Assembly (NCBI GenBank): GCA_017881315.1
Contig: JADGRB010000017.1
Location: forward strand, 1 to 38,839
Source: Pseudomonadota bacterium
Lineage (GTDB): Bacteria; Myxococcota_A; Polyangia; Fen-1088
Reading direction: 5' to 3'
DNA: 38,839 nucleotides
Within the stretch, counting starts at the first letter, position 1; each line of letters begins with the position of its first letter. Under the pieces are notes generated by a model, which made no database searches, had not been told where the DNA came from, and was given only the letters and a program-made list of their open reading frames with translations. The translations under genes were made by a program, and so were the position numbers. Of this stretch, positions 18,668-27,605 are shown piece by piece.

Positions 18668-19858
18668 CTAGCGAAACTCGAGCCGGAAGAGCTGCTGGCC
18701 CATCAGCATGAAGGCGCCACTTGGAACGGTGCGTTCCTGGCGGAGCCGCAAGAACGTCCCGTTCGAGGAGCCGAGGTCGCTCAGAAACACCTGATCGTCG
18801 CGGAGCGCGATTCGCGTGTGGGTCCCCGAGACGTAGCCGTCCTCCGGGAAAAGGATGTCACCTCGCTCGCGCCCGAGCACGATGGATTCACCAAAAAGCG
18901 GGAAGGCCGAGCCGTCCACGTCGCGGCCCACGATGACCGAAAGCCGTCCCCAGAAGCCCGGATTGGGCGTCCCCATGACGTCGGTGCCGTCTTCCAGGGG
19001 CTGGGGAGGCGAGATCACCTCGAACCGCAACAGCTCCTGTCCGATGCGGAAGATGTCGCCCGATTCGAGCGCCTCTTCGTCGCCAATCTTCAGGAAGATT
19101 CCGTTCAGGCTCTGAAGGTCGCGGATCGTCACGCCATTCGGGCCGACGGAGAGCTCGGCGTGCCGGGGAGACAGGTAGGCATCGGCATCGAACAACGGAG
19201 CCTGCCCGCGCCCGATGAGGTTCTCGCCATCGTGCAAGGGATGAGCTCCCCCTTCGGTGCCGTCCGGCCGAATCAGGATCAAGCGCCCGCGCGGCACGGC
19301 GGCCGGTGCGGCGGCGGTCGAGCCGGCCATGAACATCGTTCGTGGCGGGCCGCCGACGGCCGCTGACGCGCCCGAGGGCTGCTTGGCCATGCGTGTCCCG
19401 CAGCCACCGCAGAAGGCGAATCCGATCTGGACCATCTTGCCGCAGGTCGGGCAGGGGATCTGACCCTCCGGAGCCGGTGCGGCGCCCCCGGTCACCCGCA
19501 GAGGTCCTGGCGTCCCACCGAGGGCGCCGACCGCGCTGGCGCCACCGGAGGTCGAGCGCGGAGCGCCGGCGGGTCCCGCCAGCGGATTGGGCGGAAGCTG
19601 AAAGGCGATGGCGGAAGGCATCTTGGGCGAGTCGCCCCAGGGAATTCCACCGCGAACCTTGGGCACGGCCGGCGAGGAGCTCCGCAGCTCGCCGGCCACC
19701 GTGGCCGCCATCGGGGCGGGAGGGAGCACCGTCCGCGCGGTCTCGAGCGAGGAGTCGATGGCCGGCGCAGGGGCCGGTTTTACGAGCTCACTGCCGCAGC
19801 CAAGGCAAAACTTGTAGTGGTCCTGGTTTTCTTTGCCGCAGCGGTTACAGGTAATCAA
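18668..19858 (-). CDS. Zinc-ribbon protein with two FHA domains
   Basis: CNRCGKENQDHYKFCLGCG and CPTCGKMVQIGFAFCGGCG zinc ribbons; FHA motifs IGRG..SPRH..LNG and LGRE..SGTH..SSNG. Start taken at TTG 19858 (LITCNRCG); track start 19891 is possible. Confidence 0.88.
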   Translation of the reverse strand: MITCNRCGKENQDHYKFCLGCGSELVKPAPAPAIDSSLETARTVLPPAPMAATVAGELRSSSPAVPKVRGGIPWGDSPKMPSAIAFQLPPNPLAGPAGAPRSTSGGASAVGALGGTPGPLRVTGGAAPAPEGQIPCPTCGKMVQIGFAFCGGCGTRMAKQPSGASAAVGGPPRTMFMAGSTAAAPAAVPRGRLILIRPDGTEGGAHPLHDGENLIGRGQAPLFDADAYLSPRHAELSVGPNGVTIRDLQSLNGIFLKIGDEEALESGDIFRIGQELLRFEVISPPQPLEDGTDVMGTPNPGFWGRLSVIVGRDVDGSAFPLFGESIVLGRERGDILFPEDGYVSGTHTRIALRDDQVFLSDLGSSNGTFLRLRQERTVPSGAFMLMGQQLFRLEFR

Positions 19859-19970
19859 AGGGACCCCCGGTAAGCCTATCGCAACTAGCACGACGGGCGG
19901 TCAGCGTCAATTCACTCCGACGAGATCGTTCGGTTTTCCGACACGCCCGACACTCGAGACAGGTCGCTTC

Positions 19971-20753
19971 CTAGGTGACCTCCACCCGGAGAAGCTGCTG
20001 CCCGAGGAAGACGTGATCGCCATGTTCGAGCGCGAGATCGTCGTTGATGCGGACGAAGGTTCCGTTCTTCGAGCCGAGATCGGTGAGGGTGATCTGACCC
20101 TCGCCGTTCATGGTGATCTGGGCATGCCGTCCGGAGATGAAGGGGTCGTCCAGAAAGTTCACGTCGTTTCCTTCACGACCGATCGAAATCGTGTCACTGC
20201 GCGATCGGTAGATCATGCCGATCTCGCCGCCGCGCAGACGCTGGATCAGCTTCATCTTCGAGGGCCGTTTGGGGCTGGCGTAGAAATACGTCCCCTCCGC
20301 GTCCGGTTGCGGGCCGAGATCGGGCGGCGAGGGTTCGATCTGCAGGAGCTGCTCGCCGATCAGAAACAGCGCCCCCGGCGCGAGGGCCACGGGCACCTTG
20401 ATCCGGATGAAGACGCCGTTGACCGAGCCCTCGTCGACGACATGCAGCTTGCCATCGCGATAGACGAAATTCGCGTGTCGGGGCGAGAGCAGCGGATCGT
20501 CGGGAAACATGATCGCGCCTTCGTTCCGGCCGGCCAGGTGCTCGGTAGCGTTGAGCAGGTAGGTCACCCCGTCGACCCCCTCTCCCTTGATCACGGTCAG
20601 CTTGGCGCGGCCGGGTGGCTGCTGATTCGCTCCGAAGAACATGGTCTTGGCCGCGGGAGCCGCGGGGAGGTCGATCTTGTTGCCACAGCTACCGCAGAAA
20701 CGGTTGTCCGTGGGGACTTCGGCGCCGCAGTTCGGACAGAGCTTGCCGGACAT
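19971..20753 (-). CDS. Zinc-ribbon protein with two FHA domains (paralogue of the previous gene)
   Basis: MSGKLCPNCGAEVPTDNRFCGSCGNK; two FHA modules (LAGRNEG..SPRHANF..GSVNG; IGREGND..SGRHAQI..GSKNGTF). Confidence 0.9.
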   Translation of the reverse strand: MSGKLCPNCGAEVPTDNRFCGSCGNKIDLPAAPAAKTMFFGANQQPPGRAKLTVIKGEGVDGVTYLLNATEHLAGRNEGAIMFPDDPLLSPRHANFVYRDGKLHVVDEGSVNGVFIRIKVPVALAPGALFLIGEQLLQIEPSPPDLGPQPDAEGTYFYASPKRPSKMKLIQRLRGGEIGMIYRSRSDTISIGREGNDVNFLDDPFISGRHAQITMNGEGQITLTDLGSKNGTFVRINDDLALEHGDHVFLGQQLLRVEVT

Positions 20754-20887
20754 GTTCGTCTTGACCTCCGCACGGCATTTTGTCCGCCGGCTCGAGCATT
20801 GTCGACCGTGCGGCGAGCAAGTCAAGCGGGCCGGCGATCTTCCGCCTTCCGCCTTCCGCCTTCTGCCTTCCGTTTCCGCCGTCCGTG

Positions 20888-23800
20888 CTAGCGGACCCGA
20901 TCCGATCGGGCGAGCGCCTCCCGCGCGGCCTGGCGGACGAGCGGGTGTCGATCGGTGGTGGCGGGCCAGAGGTAGGCCCGGCCCGATGGGCCAAGCGCCG
21001 CCAGGACCCCGACCGCCGCGAATCGTCGACGCCAGGCGCCGGGCGAGCCGTTGTCGGAGAGCAGCGGCGCCACCGCGCCGGCGATCGCCGGGCCGAGGAG
21101 CGGCCGTACCCTCGCCACTCCGTGCGCCGCCAGAATGGCCGCTCCGGCGAGCGCAGCCGACCCGTCGCGGACCGCGTCCGCGAGGCGTGCCGGGGTCACG
21201 CGCTCGTCGTCGATCTTGGCCAGCACCCGTAACGCCGCCGCGCGGATGTCCACTGCCGGATCGTCGAGCAGAGCCGCCACGCGATCGGCCAGCGGGAGCG
21301 CGATCTCGCGAAGTGCCAGGGCTGTGTCGGGGCCTGCCGCGACATCGCCCTCGGGCGCCAGCGCGCCCAGTCCGGGCCCGTCGGTTCGGCTGTCGAGGGC
21401 GGCCAGGGCCGCGCGGCGCCGGTCACCCGGGTGACCGAGTGATTCCGCCAGGAGGTCCTCCAGCGCGCGGGTGTGGTCTCGCCACAGCGGTGCCAGGTCG
21501 CCGGGCGGAGGCGCCTCGGTGAAGGCCGCCAGCGCATCCCCGAGATCGAGCCCGTTGCCGGTGACGAACCGACCTTCATCGGGTGGGGGAGCCGCGGTCA
21601 GCCAGGCGCCGAGCGCCGCGATGGGCGCGGCCGCATCGACGAGCGCGAATCGTTCCGGCAGCAACGCGCGGGTGAGCAGCACCGGCAAGGCGCGTGGATC
21701 GCGCGCGCGGGCCAGCGCAAAGGCGGCCGCGCGCGACAGGTCGACGTCGCCGGCATCCAGCAGGTCGATCAGTGTGGGGGTGCCGGCCGACAGACCGGCG
21801 CGACCCAGCCCCGCGATTGCCGCGCTCCGAACCAGCAGCGGTCGGGCGGGATCGGCCGCCACCCGTGCCAGGAGCTGGGCCGGTGCGGCTCCCCGATCCC
21901 GACTTTCTCGACCTTCCCGGTCTTCTCGACCGTGCCAATCTGGGGCGCGCCGACCGAGACCGAGACAGGCCGCAGCCTGGATTTCCGGGCGCCGATCCTC
22001 GAGCGCCCGCTCCAGAAAGGGCGTCACGCGCGGGTCGGGGATCCGGCCAAGGCTCCAGACGGCGGCGGTCCGGGTGGCGGTGCTGCTGGCGCCGACGGCG
22101 TGTTCGAGGGCCGATCGCCCCCGCGGATCGGCGAGGCGTCCGAGGGCGACGATCGCCGCGAGTTGGGCTTCCGTCGCCCCGCTGGCGGCGGGGCTTCGCG
22201 GATTGCCCTCGGCCAACCGCGCGGCGATTCGCGCCAGCGCCGGCGCCGCGTCCGTGTTGCCCAGCATTCCGAGGAGCTCGATCGCAGCGGGGTCCGGGGC
22301 CTGATCGGCGTCGGTGACCAGATCCAGCAGCGGCCGCAGCCATCGTCGGCCGAGGCGCGCGCGTGTGGCGTCGGCGGTGGGATCCCGGTAAAGCGGTGGC
22401 AACATCCTTTTCAGCACGCCGACCAGGGCTCTCCGCCGGGCGGCTGTCGCTTGTTCGTCGGGCATGGTGGACGAAAGCGTCTGCGCGAGCTCCGACAACC
22501 GGCCCAGGGACTCGTCGAGCGTCAGCGCCCGTCGCGCGGCATCTGTCACCGATGCGTCGTCGTGCGAGGTCCGCAGCAGCGTCTCGATCGTCGTGGCTGC
22601 GCCGACGCCGTCGCCCTGCCGCACCTGGATCTTGGCCAGGGACAGGCCCGCTCCCGGGGGGGCGTCTCCTCGCAGAGCCTTCCGGTACGTCGCGGCGGCC
22701 AGCGTGTCTGAGCCCGCGCGCTCTCGGAGCTCGGCAATCCTAACCAAGGTGGCGGGATCGGCGCCGACCTCGGCATCCGCGGCACGCGCGAGGGCGCCCG
22801 CGGTGTCGTAGCGCCCGAGCGCGATGGCGGCCATCTGAAGCTGGGCTTCGCGCGCCCGGCCGGGCGCCAGGCGACCGAGCTCGTCCAGGCGCAGGGTGGC
22901 CTCGTCGAGCTGACCGGTTCGTTGAAGAAGACGGGCTAGCGCAAACCCCGCCTCGATCGCCGCGGCGCGCGCGTCGCCGGATCCGCCACCCGCCGCGGCG
23001 CGCGCGTCGCCAGATCCGTCACCCACCGCGGCACCGCGCGCGAGGATCGCGCGCAGCGTGGTCATCGCCCCTGCGCCGTCGCCGAGCCGTTGCTGGGCCT
23101 CCGCCAGAAACAGCCACGTCTCGGCATCATCCGGATGTGCCTCGGCTTCGCTCCGCAGGCGGTGAACCTCGGCGTCCAGCCGTCCCCGTCCCTGACGCGC
23201 AAGCAACGCCAGGCTGTGCGTGCGGGCCTCGCGCCGGCGCCCGGCATCTCCGCCATCCGAGCCCGCGGGGCCCGCGATCCGCAGGACCAGATTCCACTCT
23301 TCGAGCGCGGCGTCCGGTTTGCGCTGCCGTTCGTAGATCTGCGCGAGCAAGCGGTGGGGTGCGGCGCTCTTGGCGTCGAGCGCCAGCGCGCTCCGCGCCT
23401 CCTCGATCGCGCCCGTGAAGAGATCGTGATCGAGCAGCACCTCGCCGAGCCGCAGGTGTCCGGCCACCGCCGAACCCGCTCGGGTGCGCAGGGCCGACCA
23501 GGTCCGGCGCGCGTCGTCCTTCTGACCGGATTGAAACTGCGCTTCGCCGAGGGCGACGATCGCGCTCTCGCTGGTGGGATCGAGCTTGTGAATGCGTTCC
23601 CGGATCGCCAGCGCCCGCCGGTCGTCGCCCGCGCGCGCGGCGCTCTCCGCCAGCTCCCGGAGCGCGGCCGCTTGGTGGGCGAAATGGATCGTGGCGCGAT
23701 CGATCGTCGCCGCCGCGGCCGCGCGGTCGCCGCCGCGCAGCTGGCGGTTGGCGAGCTCGGTGGAAAAGCCGACCTCGGAAGGAAGCCGACGCGCCAGCTC

Positions 23801-24856
23801 GGCGGTGGTCGCGGTCGCTTCTTCGTCCCGACCCATTCGCTCCTGCAGCGCGATCAGCCGGCGCCCGATCGCCGCGTCGCGCGGCGCACGCGCCAGGGCC
23901 GTCCGGGTCGCCGTCAGCGCTCCCTCGAGATCGCCGAGCTCGTCACGGACCTGGCCGAGGATTTCCCATTCGACGGGGCCGGGCGCGCGTTCGAGCTCGT
24001 CGGCCAGGGCGCCGAGGGTTCCACGGCTTCGCGCCAGGTCGCGGGCGCAGGTCCAGACCGCGCGGCGACTCTCGCTCGCCGCCAGGGGCAGCTGCCGGAT
24101 GAGCGCGTCCAGTCCCGCGGCGGCTCGGGCGGCGTCGCCCGGATCGCCGCCGGCCAGGCGCAGGCGTGCCGCGCGCAGGGCCAGCGCCAGTTTGCCCGCG
24201 GCGCGATCGGACGGCAGGCGCCGTTCCAGGATCTGCGCCGCTTCGATGGGCCGGCCCACCGATTCCAGCAGGTCGGCGAGTCGCTCGGCCTCGACATCGC
24301 CATCGGGTACCAGGGCCACCAGCTCACGGCGGAGGGCGAGACGGTGTTCGAGGTCGCCGCCGGGCTCGCGCGCCAAGAGTGCCAGCTCCGCCTCGATCAA
24401 TCGTCGACGGAGGGGCGGACGCTTCTCGTGTCCCAGCGCCTGGTCGTACGCCGCGACCGCCTCCGCGACGGCCCCTGTCGCGGCCAGTGCCCGGGCTCGA
24501 CCAGCCAGCGCCGCCCCCGAATCGGGGACGATCTTCAACGCCTCGCCGAAGGTTTGGGCGGCTTCGGCCGCGTCGCCCAGCGCGAACAGAAGCTGCGCGT
24601 AGGCGGCGAGCGGCGCGTAACCCGTCGCCCCGACAGCCCAGGCGCGAAAGCGCGCCCGCAACGCGGCGGCGCCAGGTCGTCCGGCCAGCTGGACCACCCG
24701 CCGGGCCAGCGTTTCGTCGTCTGGGTTGTCGCGCAGCGCCCGTTCGCCGCGCTCGAGAACGACGCTCGAGCCGCCGCGGTGGACCTGCCAATCCGCCGGC
24801 GCCGGCCGGGGGGCCGCCATGACCAAGACCGCCGCAAGTACCAGCCGGCGCGCCAC
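20888..24856 (-). CDS. Large exported TPR + HEAT-repeat protein (1322 aa)
   Basis: Signal peptide MARRLVLAAVLVMAAPRPAPA; many TPR-like units, then HEAT-like repeats (AIVALGRLADPRGRSALEHAV, AAVWSLGRIPDPRVTPFLERAL). Confidence 0.85.
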   Translation of the reverse strand: MARRLVLAAVLVMAAPRPAPADWQVHRGGSSVVLERGERALRDNPDDETLARRVVQLAGRPGAAALRARFRAWAVGATGYAPLAAYAQLLFALGDAAEAAQTFGEALKIVPDSGAALAGRARALAATGAVAEAVAAYDQALGHEKRPPLRRRLIEAELALLAREPGGDLEHRLALRRELVALVPDGDVEAERLADLLESVGRPIEAAQILERRLPSDRAAGKLALALRAARLRLAGGDPGDAARAAAGLDALIRQLPLAASESRRAVWTCARDLARSRGTLGALADELERAPGPVEWEILGQVRDELGDLEGALTATRTALARAPRDAAIGRRLIALQERMGRDEEATATTAELARRLPSEVGFSTELANRQLRGGDRAAAAATIDRATIHFAHQAAALRELAESAARAGDDRRALAIRERIHKLDPTSESAIVALGEAQFQSGQKDDARRTWSALRTRAGSAVAGHLRLGEVLLDHDLFTGAIEEARSALALDAKSAAPHRLLAQIYERQRKPDAALEEWNLVLRIAGPAGSDGGDAGRRREARTHSLALLARQGRGRLDAEVHRLRSEAEAHPDDAETWLFLAEAQQRLGDGAGAMTTLRAILARGAAVGDGSGDARAAAGGGSGDARAAAIEAGFALARLLQRTGQLDEATLRLDELGRLAPGRAREAQLQMAAIALGRYDTAGALARAADAEVGADPATLVRIAELRERAGSDTLAAATYRKALRGDAPPGAGLSLAKIQVRQGDGVGAATTIETLLRTSHDDASVTDAARRALTLDESLGRLSELAQTLSSTMPDEQATAARRRALVGVLKRMLPPLYRDPTADATRARLGRRWLRPLLDLVTDADQAPDPAAIELLGMLGNTDAAPALARIAARLAEGNPRSPAASGATEAQLAAIVALGRLADPRGRSALEHAVGASSTATRTAAVWSLGRIPDPRVTPFLERALEDRRPEIQAAACLGLGRRAPDWHGREDREGRESRDRGAAPAQLLARVAADPARPLLVRSAAIAGLGRAGLSAGTPTLIDLLDAGDVDLSRAAAFALARARDPRALPVLLTRALLPERFALVDAAAPIAALGAWLTAAPPPDEGRFVTGNGLDLGDALAAFTEAPPPGDLAPLWRDHTRALEDLLAESLGHPGDRRRAALAALDSRTDGPGLGALAPEGDVAAGPDTALALREIALPLADRVAALLDDPAVDIRAAALRVLAKIDDERVTPARLADAVRDGSAALAGAAILAAHGVARVRPLLGPAIAGAVAPLLSDNGSPGAWRRRFAAVGVLAALGPSGRAYLWPATTDRHPLVRQAAREALARSDRVR
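22962..23027 (-). repeat. Imperfect 33-bp tandem duplication inside the TPR/HEAT gene
   Basis: Copies at 22962-22994 and 22995-23027; encodes GDGSGDARAAA/GGGSGDARAAA. Confidence 0.75.
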
Positions 24857-25893: not shown

Positions 25894-26526
25894 TTGAGCT
25901 CTAGCAACTGCGGGGGCGCATCGGTCGAAAACGGAGCCGTGCAGGTCAATGACGCGACGGTCGCTCCGGTCGTTCGAAAGGATGATCCTTCCGTCGGTGG
26001 TGCGGCGGACGCAACTCGGCGGGCAGCCCGCTCCAGCCCGCGTTTCCGCGACACGCTTGCGCGCGGCGGTTCCGTTGGTGCAACCGGGGTAGGGACGGAG
26101 ACGGCCATGGCGGCGGCGCTGGCGGGGTGGTTTCGTGGCGAGCCGGCGCCTCGGTCGCCGGCACCGCCTCCCATCGCGCCAGCCCCGCCGCCGGCGCCCC
26201 CGTCGAAGATCGATCGAATCTTGGTCGGGGACGTTGGCGGTGAGGTCCAGGCGCGCATCCGGATCGGGTCGGGCGAGCTGGCCGGGGCCGAGATACGACT
26301 GACTTCGGCGCCCGGATCACGCGCCGTGGCCGCTGAGCTCTTGACACGAACCGAGGGTTCGCGGCAGACGCTTTCAGTGGCGATGAACGAGCTCCGACTT
26401 CGGCTGCGAAGCAAAGGGATCGCGCTGGCGGCGACGGCGACGCGCCCGCGCCATCCGGACGGCCATGGCGCGGGCGGGTCGAACGACGGCGGCGGGTCCG
26501 AGTCCGGCGGCGGGACCGATCGGTGA
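25894..26526 (+). CDS. SctP/FliK-like type III secretion protein (putative)
   Basis: Pro-rich middle and C-terminal FliK/HpaP-like segment QARIRIGSGELAGAEIRLTSAPGSRAVAAELLTRTEGSRQTLSVAMNELRLRLRSKGIAL; start TTG 25894 uncertain; overlaps sctQ start. Confidence 0.5.
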   Translation: MSSSNCGGASVENGAVQVNDATVAPVVRKDDPSVGGAADATRRAARSSPRFRDTLARGGSVGATGVGTETAMAAALAGWFRGEPAPRSPAPPPIAPAPPPAPPSKIDRILVGDVGGEVQARIRIGSGELAGAEIRLTSAPGSRAVAAELLTRTEGSRQTLSVAMNELRLRLRSKGIALAATATRPRHPDGHGAGGSNDGGGSESGGGTDR

Positions 26527-27605
26527 ACGTCGAACCATTCGATCTCGGCAAGTGCCCCTCGGTTCGGGCCGCGGACGCGGCGGCGAGCCGCGCGGCGCTT
26601 CGCGTCCTGTCGATGCTTCCGCCGCGCTGGCGGGTCGATCTGCCGGTGCTCGATTCGGTGATCGTGACGGTGGTGGGGCCCGATTTCGAGATCCGCCCAT
26701 CCGATCTGCCGGATCCGACGGATTCGATCGCCCTCCAGATCGCGCGTGCGACGGAGGTCGGACGTCTCACCTTGACGTCGTCGTTCGCGGTGCGGCTCAT
26801 CGATGCCGCGCTGGGGGCGCGGGGTGCGTTTTCGGCGGCGCGAGCCCTGGGTCCGGCCGAGCGCGGTGTTCTGGTCGCGCTCGTCGCCCCGGTCCTCGAC
26901 ATCCTCGGTTGGTCGTTGAGACTCGGATCCCCGTCGCCAAGCACCGGCGCTCGCCTGCGCCTGGCGCTGCGAATCGAGGGGTCAATTGGCGCGGGCGTTC
27001 TCGGGCTCGACTTATCGCGTGGCGCGTCGGTGTCGGGCGACCACTGGCGCGCACGCGCCGGCGAGCTTCCGGTGATCGCGCGGGTGGAGATAGCGGCGAC
27101 CGAGCTACGCGCGGCGAGCCTGGTCGGCCTCGCGCCGGGCGACGCGCTGGTGTTCGATGGCCCGCGCGCCGCGAGCTACCTGGGCGAGGGTGCCCGCGAT
27201 CGCTGGGAGGGGCGGCTGGCCATCGGGGCGTATGTCGCCCCGCTTCATATCGAGCCCGACGGCAGCCTGGAGCTGGCGGGAGACTTTCAACTGACCGGAA
27301 CGCCGCTGGAGCGGACAGTCGCCATCAAGAGGGAGGAAGCCATGGACGTTTCAGGACCAACCGAGAAAGCCACTGCAGCGCTCGCAGGGGCGCCCATCGA
27401 GGTGCTCGCCGAGCTGGCGCGGATCACGCTCCGCGGGGACGAGGTGCTCGGGCTCGCGCCGGGGGTGGTGCTGACGGTTGCGGCCGACCGGCGGCACGCG
27501 ATCGCACTCCGGGTCGGCGGCGAGATCTGGGCGGAAGGCGAGCTGGTCGACGTCGACGGTCAGCTCGGCGTTCGCGTCACGCGGATGCTCAAGACGGGCC
27601 GCTGA
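26523..27605 (+). CDS. sctQ: Type III secretion C-ring protein SctQ (two SpoA domains)
   Basis: C-terminal SpoA PIEVLAELARITLRGDEVLGLAPGVVLTV...GEIWAEGELVDVDGQLGVRVTRML; earlier SpoA-like LPVIARVEIAATELRAASLVGLAPGDALVFD; GTGA overlap with preceding gene. Confidence 0.8.
   Translation: MNVEPFDLGKCPSVRAADAAASRAALRVLSMLPPRWRVDLPVLDSVIVTVVGPDFEIRPSDLPDPTDSIALQIARATEVGRLTLTSSFAVRLIDAALGARGAFSAARALGPAERGVLVALVAPVLDILGWSLRLGSPSPSTGARLRLALRIEGSIGAGVLGLDLSRGASVSGDHWRARAGELPVIARVEIAATELRAASLVGLAPGDALVFDGPRAASYLGEGARDRWEGRLAIGAYVAPLHIEPDGSLELAGDFQLTGTPLERTVAIKREEAMDVSGPTEKATAALAGAPIEVLAELARITLRGDEVLGLAPGVVLTVAADRRHAIALRVGGEIWAEGELVDVDGQLGVRVTRMLKTGR
27342..27605 (+). CDS. Predicted internal translation product SctQ-C (87 aa, last SpoA domain)
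   Basis: GGGAGG at 27331-27336, 5 nt, then in-frame ATG 27342 (MDVSGPTEKATAALAGAPIEVLAEL...). Confidence 0.5.
   Translation: MDVSGPTEKATAALAGAPIEVLAELARITLRGDEVLGLAPGVVLTVAADRRHAIALRVGGEIWAEGELVDVDGQLGVRVTRMLKTGR

Follow-up and report, generated by a model that had tools for sequence, protein, structure and literature searches.

Evidence for a conserved internal translation start before the last SpoA domain of sctQ in environmental Myxococcota

Main finding

The sctQ gene of an uncultured soil bacterium from the myxobacterial phylum very probably yields two proteins: full-length SctQ and, through internal initiation, its FliN-like partner SctQ-C. The window, i.e. the whole stretch of DNA analysed, is an entire 38.8-kb contig (C421) of a 5.47 Mb metagenome assembly that is 91% complete. 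According to the proposed mechanism, a single mRNA would be read from two starts: ribosomes starting at GTG 26523 would make the 360-aa SctQ (FliM-like middle part, SpoA1 and SpoA2), and ribosomes recruited to GGAGG at 27332 would begin at ATG 27342 and produce SctQ-C, an 87-aa equivalent of FliN that consists of SpoA2 alone. By analogy with its relatives, SctQ-C would be produced and would bind full-length SctQ, most likely as SpoA2 homodimers. Dimerisation and a role in the type III sorting platform are suggested on the same grounds, with SctQ and the SctQ-C homodimers presumably building its pods, the equivalent of the C-ring.

The sctQ gene and its predicted internal start

The full-length gene (26523..27605, + strand, GTG start) encodes 360 amino acids, with an N-terminal part resembling the FliM middle region followed by SpoA1 and SpoA2. 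The best family in the scan was TIGR02551 SctQ (80.8 bits, E=1.6e-22, residues 66-355), under the curated cut-off of 100.8, as is also the case for most of the relatives' SctQ-like proteins. Two FliMN_C/SpoA (PF01052) stretches were found at the C-terminus, with profile positions of 245-287 and 353-415 in ORF residue numbering. Structure prediction (mean pLDDT 69) gave a model that matches the FliM(SpoA)::FliN fusion 4yxb/4yxc at E about 1e-8 (1.5e-8 for 4yxb), and the N-terminal part of the model matches FliM middle domains. The sequence profile of the protein's family likewise matches the PDB entries of FliN, YscQ-C (3uep, E=6.5e-7) and HrcQb-C (1o9y).

Positions 27330-27344 read AGGGAGGAAGCCATG, i.e. 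AGGGAGGAAGCC-ATG. The internal Shine-Dalgarno (SD) core GGAGG (27332..27336, +), located within AGGGAGGA (27330-27337), is separated by a 5-nt spacer from an ATG (27342..27344, +) that encodes Met274 of SctQ, in frame with GTG 26523 and 273 codons downstream of it. The predicted SctQ-C (27342..27605, +; 87 aa) would comprise a short N-terminal helix and the complete SpoA2, the FliMN_C/SpoA domain covering residues 14-83 of the product (PF01052, 54.5 bits). As residues 259-278 have a pLDDT below 50 in the SctQ model and the ATG is codon 274, the start lies in the predicted disordered linker immediately before SpoA2. An in-frame start codon with an SD thus precedes the last SpoA domain, as in YscQ, Spa33 and HrcQ. 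The first-pass annotation had described a near-perfect SD 5 nt before an in-frame ATG that gives an 87-aa SctQ-C; the sequence, the frame and the domain content were all confirmed, and "near-perfect" was found to apply to the GGAGG core, not beyond it.

The anti-SD duplex at ATG 27342 was calculated at -11.4 kcal/mol. The window's genes contain 126 further internal ATGs; none matches this value and only five reach -8 kcal/mol. The GTG start of sctQ itself has a weaker SD (-5.5). The anti-SD was taken as standard because only partial 16S sequences were available from the genome and its family, the 16S 3' end being missing from the assembly; the SD background consisted of window genes and homologous genes rather than the whole genome. 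The strong internal SD at 27332 is not a product of chance.

Conservation of the internal start

The homologue search covered 193 relatives and found homologues in 112, from which loci of about 100 genes were taken. The class-wide set comprised 87 unsplit sctQ-like genes from 23 families of the same class, and the 27 codons that precede the final SpoA domain were taken as the linker. Unread bases in its linker made locus L017 uninformative.

Within the same family, the internal ATG is present wherever the linker is readable. The close homologue in G001 (70% identity) carries both the ATG and an SD of -11.8, and SD energies of -8.7 and -6.0 were obtained for G004 and G008, respectively. Weak SDs were found in G002 (-5.3), G003 (-5.2) and G006 (-3.3), all three of which keep the ATG. 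All seven species of genus g6 have AGGAGG with an 11-nt spacer (-9.8 to -12.2). Families f12 and f3 also have the ATG, combined for the most part with weak SDs. The weak SDs in G002, G003, G006 and these two families count against the two-start reading.

Across the class, a linker ATG was found in 77 of the 87 genes (89%), compared with 23% of 1731 windows of equal length taken from other parts of these genes. If an SD of -6 kcal/mol or stronger is required in addition, the figures are 56% of the 87 genes and 3.9% of control windows; for -8 kcal/mol or stronger they are 33% and 1.9%. The mean SD energy was -6.2 for linker ATGs and -3.0 for other internal ATGs (p=3e-15); since the genes are related, such p-values overstate their independence, and the tally by family, in which 18 of the 23 contain one or more genes reaching -6, is the more cautious measure. 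Conservation of the SD and ATG in orthologues had been set beforehand as a check, and it was borne out in G001, in genus g6 and statistically over the 87 genes and 23 families, indicating a conserved start site of the YscQ/Spa33/HrcQ type.

Beyond the class, a small sample of fused genes (n=14) from further families of the phylum shows a similar pattern: an ATG or GTG is present in the linker in 93% of them, and an ATG or GTG with an SD of -8 or stronger in 57%, compared with 15% elsewhere. In relatives outside the class (loci L142, L147, L154, L161 and L167) the internal site has a GTG with a strong SD (-8.5 to -12.8). Seven FliM-like genes are followed by a separate SpoA ORF, as in the flagellar FliM/FliN or HrcQa/b type, and in none of them does a linker ATG have an SD reaching -6.

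Selection on the nucleotide signal

The signal might be no more than a by-product of an acidic linker rich in Glu, Lys and Arg (AAG AGG GAG GAA) combined with a chance methionine, in which case only full-length SctQ would be made. The Glu codons GAG and GAA do easily yield GGAGG-like strings, and when the amino acids of the window gene were fixed, synonymous draws still averaged -7.45 kcal/mol, with 2.35% of them matching or beating the internal SD (p=0.024). However, ATG is enriched 4- to 5-fold exactly in the linker, the split FliM-like genes lack the signal, and both SD strength and mRNA openness exceed the synonymous expectation. When synonymous codons were redrawn class-wide with the protein fixed, the mean SD was -7.0 observed versus -5.6 redrawn (p=2.6e-8), and the folding energy of the 42 nt around the internal ATG was -6.1 observed versus -8.7 redrawn (p=8e-12), i.e. 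the observed mRNA is more open. The folding relief persists 3 and 12 codons downstream of the internal ATG and was absent 12, 25 and 40 codons upstream of it. Single-gene tests were mostly not significant alone, the effect being one of the aggregate. The synonymous-codon tests show that the nucleotide signal itself, and not just the protein, is under selection; the SD and folding pattern is that expected of a real initiation region, and amino-acid content alone is insufficient to account for it. An origin of the SD by chance from a Glu-rich linker is thus unlikely, and the redraws together with the ATG enrichment rule it out as the main reading.

An internal SD could also act by pausing the elongating ribosome between SpoA1 and SpoA2, aiding co-translational folding without any initiation. 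The position of the site, in an inter-domain linker just before a fold unit, would suit such a role. Pausing, however, needs neither an ATG nor open mRNA centred on it, and both are specifically enriched. Because the ATG and the openness centre on the start, a pausing-only role is disfavoured and seems highly improbable. Equally improbable is the formation of the short protein by another route, either an internal promoter giving a short transcript or proteolysis of SctQ. Proteolysis requires no SD, ATG or codon-structure signal, which are signals of initiation, and a transcript from an internal promoter would still use the start at ATG 27342.

Internal initiation at ATG 27342 is consequently the reading retained. 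It had been proposed beforehand that the two-product C-ring design is retained in this gene and under selection; given the conservation and the selection on synonymous codons, that proposal holds as far as sequence can tell.

Genomic setting of sctQ

Directly upstream of sctQ lies an ORF (25894..26526, +; 210 aa from the listed TTG) resembling the FliK C-terminus and SctP (PF02120, E=0.045). This match falls short of the family cut-off, and none of the library matches passes its cut-off. The stop of the ORF overlaps the GTG start of sctQ (GTGA), and similar ORFs also precede sctQ in G002 and G008. Judged from its sequence and position, this ORF is probably sctP, coupled to sctQ through the GTGA overlap and co-translated with it. 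The gene had been called an orphan, which is correct in that it stands apart from other sct genes; since the SctP-like ORF overlaps its start, it is not wholly alone.

The genome contains a single PF01052 gene and no separate FliN was found in the 91%-complete assembly. Its SctV scored 740.9 bits, over the TIGR01399 cut-off and under that for FlhA, and SctR and SctJ are also encoded, so that a non-flagellar type III export apparatus occurs here without a separate FliN. The genes sctV, sctR-S-T-U, sctJ and sctQ are on separate contigs. Apart from the probable SctP-like ORF, no other sct gene was recognised on the sctQ contig, and the T3SS gene cluster that is the usual, though not obligatory, context of SctQ was not found around it. 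The 28.5-kb sctV contig, inspected by eye, contained no further recognisable sct gene. Since SctV, SctR, SctJ and the only PF01052 protein are encoded on different contigs, the genome appears to have a non-flagellar T3SS with dispersed genes, in an assembly that is fragmented.

In a sister species (L136, G001:C160, 5572-14228), sctR-sctS-sctT and, further on, sctU were found directly 3' of the ribosomal alpha operon (rpsM-rpsK-rpsD-rpoA-rplQ), the orthologue in the window genome being L134 (G000:C253). The gene names in L136 were read from the sequence, SctR alone coming from the family scan. A FliO-like membrane protein of approximately 133 aa precedes sctR-sctS-sctT in this locus, which is unexpected for a non-flagellar T3SS. 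On the contig of sctQ itself, two adjacent proteins (18668-19891 and 19971-20825, both - strand) contain zinc ribbons and FHA domains, and both also match the T3SS Yop-YscD cytoplasmic-domain model. The 1322-aa protein encoded at 20888-24856 (-) contains numerous TPR and HEAT repeats.

Possible origin and significance of the internal start

Abby and Rocha (PMC3459982) place Myxococcota at the base of the non-flagellar T3SS tree. It is conceivable, though on balance doubtful, that the internal start is a fossil fliN start codon: SctQ would have arisen by fusion of neighbouring fliM- and fliN-like genes, with the fliN ribosome-binding site kept under selection, a state ancestral to the non-flagellar T3SS and surviving in Myxococcota. 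Retention of the signal in fused genes and its absence from split FliM-like genes are compatible with such an origin. In L052, L113, L155 and L169, the FliM-like and FliN-like ORFs are in one frame with a single stop codon between them, which is compatible with it as well; these loci are possibly intermediates of the sctQ fusion, or may be due to chance. As evidence for fusion by stop loss the same-frame pairs were rejected, four of nine split pairs being within chance expectation, and for this reason the fossil origin is offered as a lead only.

No report of internal SctQ initiation in this lineage was found in the open-access literature. The new elements are the dispersed setting of the gene and the statistical support gathered across Myxococcota. 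The signal has been demonstrated statistically, with protein-level controls, for environmental Myxococcota of a single class and for a small sample outside it, in T3SSs that are not known as virulence systems. A known trick of pathogen injection machines is thereby extended to a distant lineage, which supports the view that SctQ in general has a two-product C-ring stoichiometry. In these genomes, SctQ-C will probably be overlooked by annotation pipelines. The gene set collected also provides ready data for the question of when fliM and fliN became one gene.

Comparison with known systems

Internal initiation in SctQ has been demonstrated in a handful of gammaproteobacterial pathogens. Experimental proof exists for YscQ, Spa33, SsaQ and HrcQ. 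The Yersinia pair YscQ/YscQ-C, for which internal initiation was shown by experiment (PMC4295842), resembles the window gene in that a single gene has an internal start, in frame and ahead of its final SpoA domain, and a FliN-like C-terminal third. However, yscQ belongs to a compact virulence T3SS locus, whereas the window sctQ stands apart from other sct genes and scores below the TIGR02551 cut-off.

As in the window gene, the internal starts of the Shigella Spa33/Spa33-C and Xanthomonas HrcQ/HrcQC pairs are accompanied by a purine-rich or GAGG signal. The internal start of Spa33 was shown experimentally, and its mutation loses the short product (PMC4832279). For HrcQ, a GAGG located 11 nt ahead of codon 211 is sufficient and its mutation again loses the short product (PMC8553256); the 11-nt spacing of genus g6 resembles this experimentally used site. 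The start of Spa33 is a GTG, and GTG use recurs in some of the Myxococcota relatives. Both proteins are distant in sequence from the window SctQ, whose gene is in a dispersed setting and whose short product is predicted. McDowell et al. proposed from a small alignment that internal initiation is common (PMC4832279). With dual translation established for YscQ, Spa33 and HrcQ and proposed as common, the window sctQ thus joins a known phenomenon.

The same pair of products is formed by FliM with FliN and by HrcQa with HrcQb, FliN or HrcQb being a lone last SpoA domain; these are encoded by two genes, whereas in the window both products would come from one unsplit gene. Myxococcus xanthus has a needle-less type III-like predation system, T3SS*, which is non-flagellar and was reported to include SctQ (PMC10433427). 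The M. xanthus T3SS* forms one cluster, in contrast to the sctV, sctR-S-T-U, sctJ and sctQ genes of the present genome.
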